Assembly: GCF_030684185.1 (NCBI RefSeq) | Contig: NZ_JAUXOY010000030.1 | Coordinates: 124,001 to 188,000 of the forward strand | Origin: Methylotenera sp. | GTDB taxonomy: Bacteria > Pseudomonadota > Gammaproteobacteria > Burkholderiales > Methylophilaceae | Direction: 5' to 3' | DNA: 64,000 nt | Shown: positions 37,530 to 47,230 of the stretch, in pieces | Numbering within the stretch: the stretch's first letter is position 1 | Layout of the letters: the number at the start of each line of letters is the position of its first letter | Program-made: the position numbers and the translations under genes | Notes under the pieces: generated by a model | Seen by the model: only the letters and a program-made list of their open reading frames with translations | Database searches by the model: none | Told to the model about the DNA's origin: nothing

Positions 37530-39290
37530 ATGTTGTCATACTTTCCCACCATTTATCCCGAAGAGTTGTTGTACAGCGTGTTGGCGCGTTATCATCGTCA
37601 CGTTGGCTCACCTGGGCCGGTGCATACGCTGCAAGTACTATTCGATAATCGGAAAGTAATTGCGACTTATGATTTGCCAGGGCATCTTCAATTATTGGCT
37701 CAACGTATTCCGCATGATCGCGAATTGAACTGTGACAGGATTATCAATACGCTGACGCTATATCCGTACTTCACTGCATTTGAGCCCCCATATTTGCAAT
37801 CCAAAGTCAGACAGGCGATGAAGCAAGGCAAAATTGAAAATTTGCATGTGAAACTAGGTCTTGCTGCATTTCGTGTTGGGAGAATTACACAATTACGATT
37901 TTGCCATGAATGTACGCATGAAATGCAGGTTCGATATGGCGAGTTATACTGGCGCCGAGATCACCAATTACCTAGTGTAATGGTCTGTCCAGAACATGGC
38001 TGCCTATTGCTAGAAAGTGAAGTGTCTTTTACTCAGCATAGCCGACATGAGTTTATCGCTGCAACTTCAAGAAATTGCCCATACCAGGCGAGAACAATTG
38101 TTTCAGAACCAAACTTGGATAGTTCCGTGATGTTAAATTTACATCGATTGGCACGTCTAAGCGCCGACTTGCTAAACCATCCACCTGCTTCACGAACCTA
38201 TGCAGGTTGGACATATTTTTATCGTAGCCGCATGCTCGAAGTAGGCTTGGCTCGGGCATCGAATACAATGAATCAGCAACTATTCCATGAAAAATTTAGG
38301 AACTTTTATGGAGGGACGTTGGATGCATTGCCGAATGTACTAGAAAATGGTGAAATAGGAGGTGAATGGCTGGCGACTATGGTTCGCAAGCATCGTAAGG
38401 CAAGTCATCCGTTATTCCATTTATTGGTACAAGATTTTATTGCACAGACTGCGGTAAATGTCGATCCATTTGGAAAAGGTCCTTGGCCTTGTTTGAATCC
38501 GCTTGCGCAACATCAATCATCACTATCAATCAAGGATATTAGTTTACACCGTAATCATGGCAAATCTGTAGGGGTGTTTTCTTGTTCTTGTGGTTATGTT
38601 TACACTCGTAATTTTGATGTAACAACTGGCAAAATGGGGCCAACCCGATTTTTTCATTATGGCCCTCTACTAGAGCCAGCTTTGCGTAGATATGTTGATG
38701 CGGGGATGAGCTTACGAAGTGTTGGACGTGCATTACAGATTGATCCTAAAACGGTACTACGTCTCGCACGGGAATTAGATGTTGTCGTCCCGTGGAAACT
38801 TATGCAGTCTGCGCAGAAGCGGATTAATTCAGAAATTGTGCCGCGTAATAAGCTAGCAGATAAGCCATTACCATCATCACAAATAATGTCTGTTTGTAAA
38901 AAAACTAAAAATGGATATACGCGCCATAACTGGGTAAATATTGATCAGCGTTTGGTTATGAAGCTTCGTAGATTGGTTAATATTATTCTTGTAGAGAATC
39001 CTCCCGTGCGTGTCTCAATCGCCGAACTGGAACGCCGTGTTGGTAAACGTAACTGGTTTGCCAAGCGTCAGCATCGCTTGCCGATGACGATGGCATTTCT
39101 AAAAGATACTGTAGAAAGTACAGATGAATTCCAGGTACGCCGCATTTATTGGGCTATCTTCGAATTGGAGCGTGATGGTAGCGTTAAAGCTTGGCAAGTG
39201 ATGCGTAAGGCAGGATTAAGTTCAGGTAATCTAGAGCGAATTAGTGCGATACTTGAATTACCACCTAATACTTTAGGTATTGCTGCATGA
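37530..39290 (+). CDS. tnsD: TniQ-family target selector (TnsD-like)
   Basis: A 586-residue TniQ protein. An N-terminal TniQ domain (TIYPEELLYSVLARYHRHVG) carries zinc-ligand residues (RFCHECTHEM, then VCPEHGC), and a long C-terminal DNA-binding region follows with a second Cys pair (SCSCGYVYTR). Tn7 TnsD recognises the glmS end; this protein is about 80 residues longer and no glmS is nearby, so its site may differ. It lies just after tnsC and overlaps tnsE by four bases. Confidence 0.9.
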   Translation: MLSYFPTIYPEELLYSVLARYHRHVGSPGPVHTLQVLFDNRKVIATYDLPGHLQLLAQRIPHDRELNCDRIINTLTLYPYFTAFEPPYLQSKVRQAMKQGKIENLHVKLGLAAFRVGRITQLRFCHECTHEMQVRYGELYWRRDHQLPSVMVCPEHGCLLLESEVSFTQHSRHEFIAATSRNCPYQARTIVSEPNLDSSVMLNLHRLARLSADLLNHPPASRTYAGWTYFYRSRMLEVGLARASNTMNQQLFHEKFRNFYGGTLDALPNVLENGEIGGEWLATMVRKHRKASHPLFHLLVQDFIAQTAVNVDPFGKGPWPCLNPLAQHQSSLSIKDISLHRNHGKSVGVFSCSCGYVYTRNFDVTTGKMGPTRFFHYGPLLEPALRRYVDAGMSLRSVGRALQIDPKTVLRLARELDVVVPWKLMQSAQKRINSEIVPRNKLADKPLPSSQIMSVCKKTKNGYTRHNWVNIDQRLVMKLRRLVNIILVENPPVRVSIAELERRVGKRNWFAKRQHRLPMTMAFLKDTVESTDEFQVRRIYWAIFELERDGSVKAWQVMRKAGLSSGNLERISAILELPPNTLGIAA

Positions 39291-41171: not shown

Positions 41172-41388
41172 TCGTAGATTATTACGATGTTATGTGTTCG
41201 AATATTAGCTAGTAAGATAGGTTGCTTGCTTTTTAGACGAATAATGACCTTCTCTATCGAGCGGGCTGTTTACATTTAAATGGTGATGAATATTTAACCA
41301 AAACTACTATATAGCGATTGTGTTTAACTCTCATGTAAGTCTTTAACAATTTCTACGACTAAACTTCATTCATAATGGAGATCAAGTC

Positions 41389-42180
41389 ATGACGCAAAAA
41401 TATAGAAAATTATCTAAAGCAATATTCAATTTAATTGCACCTGTAATATTATCTATCACGCCAGTAACGATTTTTGCAGCGGAATGTTTTGCAAAAAGTG
41501 ATTCAACGACTGTACCGTTACTTGAACTTTATACATCCGAAGGATGTAGCAGCTGTCCACCAGCCGACAAATGGCTAAGTGGCTTGAAACCAGATGCCCA
41601 TAAAGTGATTCCGCTGGCTTTTCATGTGGATTATTGGAACTATATCGGCTGGCAAGATAAATTCTCCAAAGCTGAATATTCAGACCGCCAACGCAAAACT
41701 GCCGCATTTGCAGGCGCTGGTTATGTGTATACGCCGCAATTTGTATTAAGCGGACGTGATTTTAAAGGAGCAGATGTGTCGCGATTAAATCAGGCAATTT
41801 CGGCGAATCAGAAATTAGCTTCTCGCGCTAATTTAAGCCTAAATGCTATTACACAGGCCAATGGGGAAATTACACTAAAAGCGACGGCACAGGCCGTCAA
41901 TCCTGATGACGTCAAAAATGCCGATATTTTTGTAGCAATTTATGAGAATAAATTGGTTAGCAAAGTAAATGCTGGCGAGAATAACGGCCGTGAACTGAGG
42001 CATGATTATGTTGTGCGTGATTTTTTTGGCGCTTTTCAGCTAAACACCAAAAACGAATTTGTAAAAAATATTACCTTAAAGGCTGAGTGGAAATTGCGTA
42101 ATGCAGGCGCGGTAATTTTTGTACAAGATTCTCGAAATGGCGAAATTTTACAAAGTTTGCAATTACCGTTTTGTAGTTAA
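41389..42180 (+). CDS. DUF1223 family secreted thioredoxin-like protein
   Basis: A 263-residue exported protein with a signal peptide to about FAAEC. A thioredoxin-like domain begins LLELYTSEGCSSCPPADKWL, where CSSC is the redox-type motif. VPLAFHVDYWNYIGWQDKF-type residues follow, as usual in DUF1223. The function of the family is not established; a periplasmic redox or metal role is possible. It is convergent with the bufferin operon, with a hairpin between them. It probably lies just outside the transposon. Confidence 0.83.
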   Translation: MTQKYRKLSKAIFNLIAPVILSITPVTIFAAECFAKSDSTTVPLLELYTSEGCSSCPPADKWLSGLKPDAHKVIPLAFHVDYWNYIGWQDKFSKAEYSDRQRKTAAFAGAGYVYTPQFVLSGRDFKGADVSRLNQAISANQKLASRANLSLNAITQANGEITLKATAQAVNPDDVKNADIFVAIYENKLVSKVNAGENNGRELRHDYVVRDFFGAFQLNTKNEFVKNITLKAEWKLRNAGAVIFVQDSRNGEILQSLQLPFCS

Positions 42181-42188
42181 TTTTATAG

Positions 42189-42232
42189 GTAACGCACTTT
42201 TGTCGGTTCTTCATAAAAATGCGTTACTTTTT
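42189..42232 (+). terminator. Terminator between DUF1223 gene and bufC
   Basis: Stem GTAACGCA (42189-42196) / TGCGTTAC (42220-42227), followed by TTTTT on the plus strand. It overlaps the bufC stop on the other strand. Confidence 0.75.
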
Positions 42233-43015
42233 AAATTGAATTAAGGCCACATTAGAAATTAACCCCATTTCTAACCAGCTAGCAAGGTATTGAGCTGCTG
42301 TTATTGTGGCTTCGTCCAAATTAAGAATATCTTCTAGGTAGGCACAAATTTCACCAAAAGTGGCACCCATCATGCCCAAATTAAGCGCAACAGCTTCAAT
42401 CTCACTCATAGAGCGAAATTGCGAATTTAAGTTTTTGCGCCAAATCAACCATGATTGATAGGTGCTCTCTTGGATTAATGCAGGTGGCATTTCTTCCGCT
42501 TCTAGTGCTTTCCACATAGGGATAATATTCCAACGTGTGCGAATAACTTGTATAGACGGTTGAAATTTAAAGCTTAGATTACTCCAACTTTCTGGGGGAT
42601 ATTTACCAAGATTCTGCAACGTTAATTCATCTACATCTTCGGCATCAAACGCTAGCGACAAAGCCCATTCAAAATCTGCCATTTCGGCTGCCACAAGGTG
42701 TTGTGGTAGTGTGTAGAGTAGGTGCTCCCGCATGCTTCCACCATACCAGCGCAAATTGCGATAAGTCGATGGATATTTATCTAAATATTCTCGAGCAGTT
42801 TTATCAAACAGGTCATCTCCTAAAAGCATTTTAAGTTTAGGATACACTGTAGCTAATGCCTCTATGATGCGCAGGCGGTATGCATCATAGTAGATACTAA
42901 GGCGTTTCTTGGCGCCTACCTTGTCATCGTCAACAATTTGATGAGTGAAAGCAATATTCTTATTGTTTATTAAAAAAGCCTGAAAATCAGACTGGATCTG
43001 CACTAAGTCACTCAT
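42224..43015 (-). CDS. bufC: BufC-like partner protein (DUF2063)
   Basis: A 263-residue protein whose N-terminus has the DUF2063 layout (QSDFQAFLINN, then RLSIYYDAYRLRIIEALATV). DUF2063 proteins are obligate partners of DUF692 oxidases in bufferin biosynthesis and present the precursor peptide to the enzyme. It overlaps bufB by eight bases, as expected for a complex. No membrane segment or signal peptide. Confidence 0.87.
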   Translation of the reverse strand: MSDLVQIQSDFQAFLINNKNIAFTHQIVDDDKVGAKKRLSIYYDAYRLRIIEALATVYPKLKMLLGDDLFDKTAREYLDKYPSTYRNLRWYGGSMREHLLYTLPQHLVAAEMADFEWALSLAFDAEDVDELTLQNLGKYPPESWSNLSFKFQPSIQVIRTRWNIIPMWKALEAEEMPPALIQESTYQSWLIWRKNLNSQFRSMSEIEAVALNLGMMGATFGEICAYLEDILNLDEATITAAQYLASWLEMGLISNVALIQFKK

Positions 43016-43874
43016 GCTTTATTCCATTGAGAATTTTTTGAGGATAACGCGCTGCAATATCTCGTGCTCTTTGTAGCTCCTGTACCAGATCAGCTATCTC
43101 TGGGATGTTGTCATCGCGCTCTATCATAGTAGAAACCTTACCAAAACGTGATGTTGCATATTCGTATAAATCCCATACTGGGTCGATTACTGGTGCATCG
43201 TGTGTATCGATAATATAATCGCCATGATTATGATGACCAGCAAGATGTATTTGTTGCACGCGATTAGCCGGTACGCCACTAATAAAGGCTTTAGCATCAA
43301 ATTCGTGGTTGTAGCTGCTCACGTAAATATTGTTTACATCAAGCAACAGCAAGCAATCAGCTTTTTCGCAAATCAGCGAAATAAATTCCCATTCACTCAT
43401 GGTAGAGTCTACATAACTCGCATAGCTAGAAACATTTTCTAGCAAAATTCTGCGTCCAAGATAATCTTGCACAATGTTTACTCGTTCAGCGACATGTTTG
43501 GCTGTTTCTTCAGTGTAAGGCAATGGCAATAAATCGTGCATGTTTTGCCCATGCACGCCCGTCCAGCATAGGTGGTCAGAAATCCATTCAGGTTGTATGC
43601 GATCTGCTAGCTGACGTAGGTCACGTAGGTAATTTTGATCAAAAGGCGTGGTAGAGCCGATAGAAAGCGAGACGCCATGCATGACGACAGGGTAATCTGC
43701 ACGAATACGGTCTAAAAAATGCAAGGGCTTGCCGCCAGGTACCATGTAGTTTTCAGAAAGCACTTCAAACCAATCCACGTTGGGTTTAGTATCAAGAACG
43801 CTATGGTAATGCTGAGTGCGCAAACCTAAGCCAAATCCTAGATAAGGACGATTTGTATTTGGGGGATTTTGCAT
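43008..43874 (-). CDS. bufB: BufB-like multinuclear iron oxidase (MNIO, DUF692)
   Basis: A 288-residue TIM-barrel enzyme of the DUF692 family, the same family as MbnB of methanobactin synthesis. Likely iron-ligand motifs are visible: HGVSLSIGS, SDHLCW, LLENVSSY, LLDVNNIY, IHLAGHHNHG and DTHDAPV. MNIO enzymes convert cysteines of a precursor peptide into modified heterocycles (thiooxazoles in bufferins) that bind copper. It is cytoplasmic and lies between the precursor genes and bufC. Confidence 0.92.
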   Translation of the reverse strand: MQNPPNTNRPYLGFGLGLRTQHYHSVLDTKPNVDWFEVLSENYMVPGGKPLHFLDRIRADYPVVMHGVSLSIGSTTPFDQNYLRDLRQLADRIQPEWISDHLCWTGVHGQNMHDLLPLPYTEETAKHVAERVNIVQDYLGRRILLENVSSYASYVDSTMSEWEFISLICEKADCLLLLDVNNIYVSSYNHEFDAKAFISGVPANRVQQIHLAGHHNHGDYIIDTHDAPVIDPVWDLYEYATSRFGKVSTMIERDDNIPEIADLVQELQRARDIAARYPQKILNGIKHE

Positions 43875-43895
43875 ATATTAGAGGTGTAATTGACT

Positions 43896-43930
43896 AAATG
43901 AGGATCACGTCTTAGACCTGATCCTCATTT
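43896..43930 (-). promoter_or_regulatory. Hairpin between precursor genes and bufB
   Basis: A 12-bp perfect inverted repeat (AAATGAGGATCA at 43896-43907, complement at 43919-43930) with an 11-base loop. It sits between the second precursor stop and the bufB start. It has only a short T-rich tail on the minus strand, so partial termination or RNA stabilisation is likely, favouring more precursor than enzyme. Confidence 0.7.
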
Positions 43931-43939
43931 ACCTAAAAA

Positions 43940-44206
43940 TTACTTTTCTACAGTACCACCTTTTGCATCACAATCTTTCGCAGTCGTCGCCAAGAAACCA
44001 TGACCTTTACATACATTTTGGCCTTTACAAGCATTCTCAGCGGTTTTACAGTCGCTCGTTCCTTTGCATGAATTTACACCTACACAATGCACTTTAGCTT
44101 CTGTCGCCATTTCAGCGCTGATTGCAAAACCAGATTGAATCAATGCCGCAGCCCCAAATGCAATCATTGCACCTGTACGCATTTTATTTTGAATATTACC
44201 TATCAT
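43940..44206 (-). CDS. bufA: Bufferin-type precursor peptide, secreted form
   Basis: An 88-residue small protein with a long N-terminal signal (ending near SGFAISAEM) and a Cys-rich core. The six core cysteines occur in the order VHC, NSC, SDC, NAC, NVC and KDC. The central 30 residues are identical to the next upstream precursor. Bufferin precursors keep a Sec signal peptide, are modified in the cytoplasm by BufB/BufC, and are exported to bind copper. There is no lipobox Cys here, so the product should be soluble. An AAAGGATC site precedes the ATG. Confidence 0.87.
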   Translation of the reverse strand: MIGNIQNKMRTGAMIAFGAAALIQSGFAISAEMATEAKVHCVGVNSCKGTSDCKTAENACKGQNVCKGHGFLATTAKDCDAKGGTVEK

Positions 44207-44278
44207 AATAGTGATCCTTTAAGTTGAAGCTATCTTTAATGTGAAAAGGGTATGACGTACATACCGTTTGTTTGATTA

Positions 44279-44545
44279 TTAAATAATGGTGCCATGTTTG
44301 GCAGTACAATCAGCAGCGCTCATCCCCAAGAAGCCGTGACCTTTACAGACATTTTGACCTTTACATGCATTCTCAGCAGTTTTACAGTCACTCGTCCCTT
44401 TGCACGAATTTACGCCAGCACAATGCACCATTTCACCACTTGAAGCGCTTTTTGACATAGTGCCAGCACAACCAGACAACACAAGTGCTGCAGCACCAAT
44501 TGCAATCATTGCACCATTACGAACCATTGATGTTTGAATAGACAT
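44279..44545 (-). CDS. bufA: Bufferin-type precursor peptide, lipoprotein form
   Basis: An 88-residue paralogue with the same six-Cys core (GVNSCKGTSDCKTAENACKG and following residues). Its signal region ends LVLSGCAG, a canonical lipobox, so this copy is predicted to be lipidated. It is first in the operon and has a strong ribosome site (GGAAGGAAAT). The C-terminus (CTAKHGTII) differs from its sister. Two precursors with different predicted locations served by one BufBC pair is notable. Confidence 0.87.
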   Translation of the reverse strand: MSIQTSMVRNGAMIAIGAAALVLSGCAGTMSKSASSGEMVHCAGVNSCKGTSDCKTAENACKGQNVCKGHGFLGMSAADCTAKHGTII

Positions 44546-44675
44546 GATATTTCCTTCCGAATTTATTATAAAAATCTACCCGCTATAGTCAAAGATCACA
44601 TATAGCTAAGGCAGAGCATCTAAATACTTAAGTGAACACAAAATACGTTCATCATGTGCTACACACAAGTTAGTC

Positions 44676-44773
44676 GGAATCATTTTCACACCCTTACAAA
44701 TTTTTTTTTATTTCTTTAGAACTATTGATTCACCATAAAAATAAATCTACAAAATTTGTAAGGAATCATTTTC
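44676..44773. promoter_or_regulatory. Divergent promoter region with inverted and direct repeats
   Basis: A perfect 12-bp inverted repeat (CCTTACAAATTT at 44692-44703, AAATTTGTAAGG at 44752-44763) and a 12-bp direct repeat (GGAATCATTTTC at 44676-44687 and 44762-44773) lie between the bufferin operon and the thioredoxin gene. They are good candidates for shared regulator or sigma-factor sites; the regulator is not in the window. Confidence 0.55.
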
Positions 44774-44813
44774 TTTTGCGACAAATGTTCTCATTTAACA
44801 CTCAGAGGTCATT

Positions 44814-45197
44814 ATGAAAACATTATTTAAATCATTACTGTTAGCAACTAGCATTCTTGTTTCTGGTACCGCATTTGCTGATCCTACCGCGTTCACTCAA
44901 GCTGGGTTCGATAGTTTGCAGAAAGCAGGTAAATCAATTCTGGTTGAAGTGCATGCGCCGTGGTGTCCAACTTGTCGCGCCCAAGCACCCATCGTTAATA
45001 ACTTACTCAAGAAAAAAGAGTTTCAGTCAATTACTGTTTTACGTGTAGATTTTGACGGACAGAAAGATGTTTTAAAAACCTTTAATGTCAGTAAACAAAG
45101 CACCTTGATTGCATTTAAAGGATCTAAAGAAGTGGCGCGTAGTACTGGTGACACATCACCTAAAAGCATAGAAAAATTATTAAAAAAGGCCATTTAA
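44814..45197 (+). CDS. Exported thioredoxin-family protein
   Basis: A 127-residue protein: a signal peptide to about TAFADP, then a thioredoxin fold with active site WCPTC (HAPWCPTCRAQAP) and a cis-Pro region replaced by SKQSTLIAFKG. It is expected to be a periplasmic thiol reductase or oxidase. It is followed after 22 bases by a CcdA-type membrane protein that could feed it electrons. Divergent from the bufferin genes, so it may keep bufferin or copper-protein thiols in the right state; this is inference. Confidence 0.88.
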   Translation: MKTLFKSLLLATSILVSGTAFADPTAFTQAGFDSLQKAGKSILVEVHAPWCPTCRAQAPIVNNLLKKKEFQSITVLRVDFDGQKDVLKTFNVSKQSTLIAFKGSKEVARSTGDTSPKSIEKLLKKAI

Positions 45198-45219: not shown

Positions 45220-45948
45220 ATGATTGCAAGTTTTGGTGTCTATGGGTTAAGTCTTCTGGCGGGCGTGCTCTCTATTTTATCTCCTTGCGTATTGCCGCTT
45301 GTGCCTATTTTAGTGGGTACTGCGCTTAATACGCATCGTTATGGTCCTTATGCATTAGCACTTGGATTAGCCATTTCATTTACCGCTGTTGGGGTGTTTA
45401 TAGCAACGATAGGTGCATCGATTGGAATAGATCAAGAGGTATTCAGAGTCATCGCCGCTGTGCTGTTAATCACGTTTGGCATCGTATTACTTTCTAGTAC
45501 CTTGCAAGAAAAGTTCGCCAGTGCAACTGCCGGTATAGGCGGCTCAGGTAATACTCTATTAAGTAAAGTGTCGACTGACTCGTTATCCGGTCAGTTTGTA
45601 TTGGGCTTATTACTGGGAATCGTGTGGAGCCCATGTGTTGGGCCAGTGCTAGGCGCAACCATTACACTGGCAAGTCAAGGTGCAAATTTGGCACATGTTA
45701 CTTTAGTGATGGCGTTGTTTGGATTAGGCGCAGGGCTACCACTGATTTTATTAGGCTTGCTTTCACGTCAAGCCATGATGCGAGTTAGAAGTAAACTTTT
45801 TACCGTAGGTAAAATAGGCAAACGTATCCTTGGTGCAATTCTATTACTTGTTGGTCTACTTATCATTACTGGATTAGATAAACAATTTGAAACCTTAATT
45901 GTGGCAGCATCGCCGGATTGGCTTATTTCACTCACTACGCGCTATTAA
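45220..45948 (+). CDS. CcdA/DsbD-type membrane electron transporter
   Basis: A 242-residue integral membrane protein with about six hydrophobic segments. A Pro/Cys motif occurs in segment one (LSPCVLPLVPILVG) and a matching one mid-protein (GIVWSPCVGPVLGA), the redox cysteine pair of CcdA. It carries reducing power from cytoplasmic thioredoxin across the membrane, here most likely to the thioredoxin-fold protein encoded just upstream. Ribosome site AACGGAG precedes the ATG. Confidence 0.9.
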   Translation: MIASFGVYGLSLLAGVLSILSPCVLPLVPILVGTALNTHRYGPYALALGLAISFTAVGVFIATIGASIGIDQEVFRVIAAVLLITFGIVLLSSTLQEKFASATAGIGGSGNTLLSKVSTDSLSGQFVLGLLLGIVWSPCVGPVLGATITLASQGANLAHVTLVMALFGLGAGLPLILLGLLSRQAMMRVRSKLFTVGKIGKRILGAILLLVGLLIITGLDKQFETLIVAASPDWLISLTTRY

Positions 45949-46030: not shown

Positions 46031-47230
46031 ATGACTACATTCCCTTGGTTTAAATCTATACGCATACAAATCGGTTTTGCTGTCCTTATTTTTTTGGTAT
46101 TGGCAGGCACTTTAGGTTATACATTACATGCGCTTAAATTGCGTCAGCATGATTATTTGATTCTCAACTTGACGGGTCAGCTGCACGTCATAAGTCAAAC
46201 CATGGCAGAACAAGCACGTGACTATGCGGAGCAAGCTCCGGACGATGATGATAAATACAACCGTGACCTAGGAACCTACTGGCAAGACCTGCAAAAACAA
46301 ACTGCGCTCTACGAGCGCATTGTACATTCGCTTGAGTCATGACAGATTGACGCAGGCATGACTGGCCATCCTGAGCACAATGCTATTTATTGTACGTGGG
46401 ATGACAGGTCTCGCTTACAAATGAGTAAGACCGCAGCAGAATGGAAAATCTTCAAGAAGGGGCTTGGTGAAAAACTTGGAAAAAATCTAAAAGAGCCTCG
46501 CCTAACATGGGCTGCTGAGTATATCGATGAACATGGCGACAAGCTGGTACGGTCATCAGGCAATTTAGCAATTGCATTTCAGTCCAACTCCTTTGAGTAT
46601 TAAGGAAAGCGAAAATTTAATGCCCATCAGGGAGGTTGGGCTGCGCTGTTGAATGAACAATTGGCGCTTACCTTATCAACAAAGCGTATTACTCAGGATA
46701 GTTTGGAAGAGGTTCTAGTTAGTAATGGATTCAGTGCTTCAGTATATTTACCGTTACTAAGTCAAGGCGGGAACCGTGCCATCATGACTTTTGCGAGTAA
46801 AAACCAGAATTATCAACAGGAGCATGTCGAGTTTCTTAAGAACATTGTAGCTACAATCTCGCACATTCTGGAAAGAACCGTAGTCATGGAGAATCTGGTT
46901 GCTTCTGCGGTGCAAGGGTTGGCTAAACTTGCCGAGAGTAGAGATACTGAAACTGGTGACCATCTTGTGCGCATGGCACTCTATTCCGCACTGGTTGCTG
47001 AGGAGTTGAGGCATGATCCTCAGTACACAGCCAAAATCACACCAGCGTATGTACGTGATGTTTACCATTTTGCTCCCATGCACGACATCGGCAAAGTTGG
47101 CATTCCAGACGACATCCTCTTGAAACCAGGTCGGTTGGACGTTGACGAACGCAAGCAAATGGAACTTCATCCAAGTATCGGCGGAGAAGTACTACGCCGT
47201 TGTGAAGCGCAAATGGCGGCGTTGGGGTGA
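46031..47230 (+). pseudogene. Decayed HD-GYP phosphodiesterase / sensor gene
   Basis: One reading frame is broken by two in-frame stops (TGA at 46340-46342, TAA at 46601-46603) and ends early at 47228-47230. Before the first stop there is a membrane segment and a periplasmic region. The middle part continues a sensory domain, and the last part has a GAF-like segment plus the start of an HD-GYP domain (AESRDTETGDHLVRM, then MHDIGKVGIPD). The later HHE and GYP motifs of the family are missing. Intact homologues degrade cyclic di-GMP; this copy is very unlikely to work. Confidence 0.88.

Follow-up and report, generated by a model that had tools for sequence, protein, structure and literature searches.

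Lipobox and Sec-type bufferin precursors paired beside one BufB-BufC set in Methylotenera, with a putative ECF-like promoter motif

Why should a single pair of bufferin maturation proteins be accompanied by two precursors with largely the same core, one predicted to be membrane anchored and the other predicted to be soluble? The question is raised by an operon of Methylotenera sp. (Methylophilaceae; assembly GCF_030684185.1), located at 42224–44545 on the minus strand of the 64,000 nucleotide stretch analysed here (contig NZ_JAUXOY010000030.1, positions 124,001 to 188,000; hereafter the window). The genes run in the order A1, A2, BufB, BufC. The original prediction described this locus as a bufferin operon with one lipobox precursor and one plain Sec precursor, and its coordinates, its gene order, and the placement of all four genes on the minus strand are borne out by the sequence. 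The locus is a real Buf2-type bufferin operon with two predicted product locations, and we consider it probable (roughly 0.6) that the one BufB-BufC pair modifies both precursors, giving an anchored and a soluble periplasmic copper buffer from an operon under a shared promoter like those of extracytoplasmic function (ECF) sigma factors.

The Buf2-type identity that had been predicted is supported by curated models. Both precursors, each of 88 residues, score above the cut-off (60 bits) of the BufA2 model NF050166, with 98.3 bits for A1 (bufA-lipo; 44279–44545, minus strand), which has a lipoprotein-type signal peptide, and 100.6 bits for A2 (bufA-Sec; 43940–44206, minus strand), which has a Cys-free Sec signal peptide. 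BufB (43008–43874, minus strand), the MNIO (DUF692) maturase, exceeds the cut-off of the curated model NF050167 (394.1 compared with 310 bits), and matches PF05114 (382.6 bits) and PDB entry 3bww (E 5e-48). BufB carries an ERDDN motif where this solved relative carries ERDFN, and the second Asp would correspond to the position, next to the catalytic Asp, at which Cys-Lys MNIOs have Asp instead of Phe (PMC13097082). CK motifs are abundant in both precursor cores. BufC (42224–43015, minus strand), which overlaps BufB by 8 bases, was correctly predicted as a DUF2063 protein, with 69.1 bits on PF09836 (cut-off 27.2). The NCBIfam HvfC model gives only 21.3 bits, under its cut-off of 142, so that the family call rests on Pfam and on the fold. 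By sequence BufC has no significant match in the PDB, and an AlphaFold2 model (pLDDT, the predicted local distance difference test, 94.8), the input of which comprised 44 of 105 collected BufC sequences and some choices by eye, gives as best Foldseek matches 3dee, a partner protein from Neisseria (E 8.6e-7), and the A chain of TglHI complexes 8hci and 8hi7. This likeness points to an RRE-type domain beside DUF2063, and is as expected for a partner protein of PME-type 1 (PMC12452194).

The two precursors share a run of 30 identical residues (GVNSC...HGFL; 44327–44416 in A1 and 43991–44080 in A2, minus strand). Of the identical six-Cys core originally described, the 30-residue identity stands and the Cys count does not, as the run holds four Cys, with six in each mature part and a seventh, Cys26 of the lipobox, in A1. 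Lipoprotein signal peptides comprise a hydrophobic segment closing with a lipobox, the Cys of which lies at residues 15–35, and a side rule of PROSITE asks for Lys or Arg within the first seven residues. A1 follows the former, with residues 22–26 reading V-L-S-G-C (LSGC codons at 44468–44479, Cys26 at 44468–44470, minus strand; Ala at +2), and narrowly misses the latter, its first positive charge being Arg9. A2 has no Cys ahead of its mature part and therefore cannot be an N-terminal lipoprotein; cleavage by signal peptidase I is likely after AIS (residue 30), as placed by eye, with A2 orthologues reading SGLAFSAE, SGFVVAAD, and SGFVASAE at the putative site. The signal peptides, recognised by inspection, have a GAMIA stretch in common, and the Sec signals of Methylophilaceae resemble lipobox signals without the Cys (QSGF or QSGL compared with LSGC). 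Two predicted locations, as originally proposed, have support in the sequence, and the pair is conserved in relatives.

The 38-codon cores of A1 and A2 are separated by 20 base differences in 114, with 5 amino-acid and 11 synonymous codon differences, which rules out recent gene conversion or a fresh copy as the source of the identity. The nonsynonymous divergence (dN) of 0.076 compared with a synonymous divergence (dS) of 1.06, the latter near saturation, and the identity of all 38 A1 core residues between this genome and another of the genus (G127) despite changes at 20 of 114 bases, argue that selection keeps the core. The closest named relative for A1 is Methylotenera sp. P-RSF-NP-04 (88%).

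BufA2 genes over the cut-off were found in 23 of 187 genomes of the family, 46 of 399 of the order, 67 of 369 of the class, and 26 of 398 of the phylum (overlapping samples), and these places were examined with the exception of two from the phylum sample (G1059:C1:1897760 and G1154:C9). At least two tandem BufA2 genes (same strand, gap of less than 800 bases) occur in 18 genomes, with nine, from six families, combining lipobox and Sec precursors: the window's own genome (G000), G127, two genomes of another genus of Methylophilaceae (G163 and G168; the family is labelled f1), and one from each of five further families (G872, G697, G657, G925, and G914). A unique arrangement is thereby ruled out. 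The tandem genes are of a single type in the other nine (G261, G217, G303, G397, G768, G1059, G1116, G1130, and G1191), both being lipobox precursors in G397 and one of the two a long membrane fusion in G768. BufB follows in eight mixed cases, the contig of G872, the ninth, ending before it, and the lipobox gene comes before the Sec gene in seven, with Sec first in G657 and in the three-gene array of G925. In G404, BufBC is flanked by a precursor of one type on one side and of the other type on the other, not in tandem. Amongst 80 named loci, four have tandem genes, three of them mixed (one is G127 again, and two, L240 and L291, belong to one metagenome-assembled genome, MAG) and one Sec-Sec (L267).

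A survey of buf operons for lipobox precursors, as suggested with the original prediction, gave a lipobox in 58 of 204 distinct precursors, beside the nine mixed genomes amongst 18. Within Methylophilaceae the share is 20 of 28 (38 of 176 elsewhere), so that the Sec copy is the exception there. A separate origin of every mixed pair is well supported for G872 only, where the cores match each other at 85% compared with 74% and 71% for the nearest cores outside the family in the pool. For the cores of G697 the nearest matches share their signal type and come from the MAG of L240 and L291, and the Methylophilaceae pair is found in two genera; searches in the families of G697 and G872, with 1 and 3 genomes available respectively, contributed little more. 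The MAG itself (SRR5242447_bin.13, an uncultured gammaproteobacterium) has two separate bufferin loci, each containing one lipobox precursor and one Sec precursor. In the lipobox precursors of Methylophilaceae loci L015 and L018–L024, additional CKG repeats lengthen the core, which hence has more than six Cys.

The operon also shares a promoter-like motif with other genes. An exact TGTAAG-N16-CGACTA site (44671–44698, minus strand) ends 125 nt before the A1 ATG, and TGTAAGG-N15-CGACTA is present upstream of A1 in all four mixed Methylophilaceae genomes. The consensus of the motif is TTGTAAGG-N15-CGACTAA. Three sites with at most one mismatch lie in the window, a number reached by none of 100 shuffles; the others are an exact site ending 27 nt before a DUF1223 gene (41334–41361, plus strand) and, from the motif scan, a site with one mismatch before a divergent thioredoxin/CcdA-like pair (44757–44784, plus strand). 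The whole genome (2.72 Mb) has four exact sites compared with 0.38 expected from base composition, all four intergenic and 27–125 nt before bufA1, DUF1223, msrP, and doxX. Seven Methylophilaceae genomes together have 25 exact sites, with 19 standing before bufA (6), doxX (5), msrP (4), DUF1223 (3), and thioredoxin (1) genes, the genes in the relatives being identified by eye on their translations. Three of the remaining six, in G127, G163, and G168, lie 161–199 nt before DsbD-like genes, likewise identified by eye, and were left uncounted as possibly coding; two have no gene within 220 nt, and one was not read. G178 has no exact site, and a site with one mismatch before its bufA.

The motif, with at most one mismatch, precedes 21 of 25 distinct Methylophilaceae BufA2 loci (16 exactly), compared with none of 25 for a reversed control; sites within ~250 nt before the open frame were considered, and the 25 loci come from a hand count of 34 rows that included duplicates. 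The loci without it are L011, for which the upstream sequence is too short, and L013, L016, and L017. The latter three also have no BufB within the 3.2 kb compared, and a DUF2282-like gene follows in L016 and L017. Outside Methylophilaceae the motif was found in 24 of 245 rows (duplicates included) and the control in none, and at two mismatches in 29 compared with 3. The two blocks are suggestive of an ECF-sigma-like promoter. That buf, msrP, and doxX share a −35/−10-like motif here is as expected of a SigF-type ECF regulon; the sequence differs from the GTAACC-N16-CGAA of Caulobacter.

The putative regulon members in the window are the convergent DUF1223 gene (41389–42180, plus strand; PF06764, 207.1 bits) and, on the other side, a gene for a thioredoxin-like protein with a signal peptide identified by eye (44814–45197, plus strand; PF00085, 56.5 bits), which is followed by one for a CcdA/DsbD-TM-like membrane protein (45220–45948, plus strand; PF02683, 58.9 bits). 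DUF1223 also lies beside buf in L103, L105, L179, L214, L215, and L237, amongst 26 loci compared, many of which are too short to show it, and the thioredoxin-like divergent neighbour recurs in L015 and L019. Elsewhere in the genome, msrP, msrQ, and doxX score above their curated cut-offs, with doxX, of the HvfX family, adjoining msrPQ and thus lying outside the buf operon. Beyond the DUF1223 gene, on its upstream side, a Tn7-like TnsD/TniQ protein (239.7 bits) is encoded ahead of a 546-residue protein without a Pfam match (37530–39290, plus strand), and at 46031–47230 (plus strand) lie three successive short open reading frames, the last of which matches HD and, below the cut-off, GAF; they may be a broken HD-GYP gene.

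Several results weigh against one enzyme pair serving two locations under ECF-like control. The signal types were set by a scripted lipobox motif rule, not by SignalP, and no clear excess of mixed pairs above chance was found, with a mixed share of 0.50 (9/18) compared with the 0.41 that random pairing would give at the pooled lipobox share of 58/204. Such a share, and the nine other tandem genomes that keep two precursors of one type, would also be seen if the second gene provided dosage only, that is, more of the same buffer, with the A2 signal an incidental drift and no separate soluble role. The count of mixed pairs alone is no proof of selection, and conservation across two genera is the better evidence: the lipobox-then-Sec order and both signal types are kept beside one BufBC in G000, G127, G163, and G168, and the Sec copies retain a plausible signal peptidase I site, which makes dosage as the sole explanation rather unlikely. 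Partial modification under a shared MNIO is allowed by Antoine, et al., and BufBC might modify one precursor only, leaving the other as an unmodified thiol-rich protein, such as an oxidant sink; the presence of oxidant repair (MsrPQ) amongst the genes sharing the motif would fit. That both precursors have the 30 identical core residues, and GAMIA in the signal peptide, speaks against such a division, as do preliminary results for Buf1, in which the signal peptide seems to contribute to BufBC recognition (Antoine, et al.), and we judge it very unlikely.

As to the promoter, sites with one mismatch show no genome-wide excess, with 10 in this genome compared with 15 for the reversed control, and with motif and reversed counts of 11/16, 16/20, 12/11, 10/7, 13/17, and 8/17 in six relatives, so that exact sites, placement, and orthology carry the case for the motif. 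No match to the NrsF anti-sigma factor (PF06532) was found in the genome, the Caulobacter control being positive, and the system is hence not assigned as a SigF-NrsF member; nor does the motif stand before the scanned sigma-factor genes of this genome (six loci and a second MNIO cluster). That second cluster (G000:C10; L323 4047–7139, minus strand) encodes an ECF sigma factor (TIGR02943, 201.8 bits, cut-off 162.2), a zinc-finger anti-sigma factor, an HvfA-like repeat precursor below its cut-off, HvfB, and HvfC, with no DoxX-like gene seen alongside by eye. A motif site inside the ECF sigma gene (C10:282580) is taken to be coding, since it lies in frame (CKELEVTAT) and similar sites recur in the six relatives searched; upstream of the gene there is no motif. 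It is possible that this sigma factor regulates the buf operon. The motif may instead be the site of another activator, with the genes co-regulated without a sigma factor, as the lack of NrsF and of a cognate sigma factor identifiable by position would allow. The two blocks at fixed spacing, their strand-specific placement before gene starts, and their likeness to the SigF promoter argue otherwise, and such an activator seems unlikely.

Parts of this system have known counterparts. In the Haemophilus and Neisseria clusters the precursor is of the EGKCG type. The RpoE2 and SigE regulons of these genera (PMC7907618) resemble the gene set described here in placing a periplasmic methionine-sulfoxide reductase together with a cluster of DoxX, UPF0276 (MNIO), and DUF2063 genes under an ECF sigma factor, whereas they have MsrAB rather than MsrPQ, and a 67-residue anti-sigma factor, HrsE. 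The SigF regulon of Caulobacter, with two DUF2282-DUF692-DUF2063 operons, YedY/MsrP (MsrPQ), a DoxX protein, and the promoter GTAACC-N16-CGAA (PMC3511200), is copper induced in both of the media and both of the cell types under test, and mutation of sigF leads to copper sensitivity (PMC8224329). Bufferin-type operons, MsrPQ, and DoxX make it alike in kind; its DUF2282-type precursors, its promoter sequence, and the NrsF present there set it apart (PMC3511200, PMC8224329). The Buf2 operons of PMC12452194 (Buf_6/12Cys) share the order precursor-BufB-BufC, the six-Cys core with a signal peptide, and the DUF2063-RRE partner, and differ in that DoxX here lies outside the operon, beside msrPQ. Sigma and anti-sigma genes are reported in Buf1 but not Buf2 clusters (PMC12452194), and this, together with the SigF-like gene set, leads us to read Buf2 operons as able to be under an ECF sigma factor encoded elsewhere in the genome.

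The original prediction held the arrangement to be undescribed, which is the case for the combination and not for its parts. Lipoprotein signals are found on around 16% of Buf2 precursors, and precursors in tandem are also noted (PMC12452194), and NedA of Neisseria dentiae, a lipidated MNIO product, is tri-acylated when made in E. coli (PMC12636315). NedA and DybA, the DAG-RiPPs, are similar in having a lipoprotein signal on an MNIO substrate, with NedA differing in its EGKCG-type precursor and no soluble twin mentioned in the available text (PMC12636315). Nine of 18 tandem genomes are themselves mixed. The literature searched holds no text on a mixed lipoprotein/Sec pair, and the available portion of PMC12452194 speaks of no enzyme pair shared between a lipoprotein precursor and a Sec precursor, and mentions no promoter or regulon. 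What is new is the putative regulation, with lipoprotein signals, tandem precursors, and MNIO lipidation already known.

On the reading that we prefer, with one BufB-BufC pair serving both precursors, this pair most likely modifies the same Cys-Lys core of A1 and A2 in the cytoplasm, ahead of Sec export. A1 would then be lipidated on Cys26, with cleavage by signal peptidase II; having Ala at +2, it would probably reach the outer membrane as an anchored buffer of copper (or another thiophilic metal), with A2 cleaved by signal peptidase I and free in the periplasm. The Sec copy resembles a duplicated gene in which the lipobox Cys may have changed to Phe or Leu while a signal peptidase I site arose. 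The operon, msrP(Q), doxX, DUF1223, and probably the thioredoxin/CcdA pair would be switched on together as an envelope response to copper or oxidants. For a role in copper handling, the original prediction appealed to a cell rich in exported cytochromes; the shared motif and the parallel with the Caulobacter copper regulon are better grounds.

A strong RNA hairpin is predicted between A2 and BufB (43895–43931, minus strand; −23.6 kcal/mol, z −6.0), and a weak one between A1 and A2 (44249–44265, minus strand; z −1.4, with 21 of 200 shuffles folding equally well). At the A2-BufB position, G127, G163, and G168 have hairpins of unrelated sequence (z −5.8, −4.1, and −3.6), that of G127 being terminator-like with a T run, and the A2-BufB hairpin is possibly an attenuator holding the enzyme below the precursor. 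Only tentatively would we extend these observations to a wider proposal, in which bufferins may have reached a two-compartment design more than once, the precursor-to-enzyme ratio may be set by hairpins, and many beta- and gammaproteobacterial Buf2 operons may belong to an ECF-type regulon not hitherto recognised, joining copper capture, methionine-sulfoxide repair, and thiol reduction though the cluster has no sigma gene.

With the same core, enzyme pair, and promoter, the two precursors offer a natural side-by-side test of anchoring a metal buffer that is a ribosomally synthesised and post-translationally modified peptide (RiPP). The shared promoter motif is a new regulatory lead for the Buf2 operon, and may serve as a cheap predictor of stress-induced bufferin operons and of partner genes at other sites in the genome, doxX being an example here.

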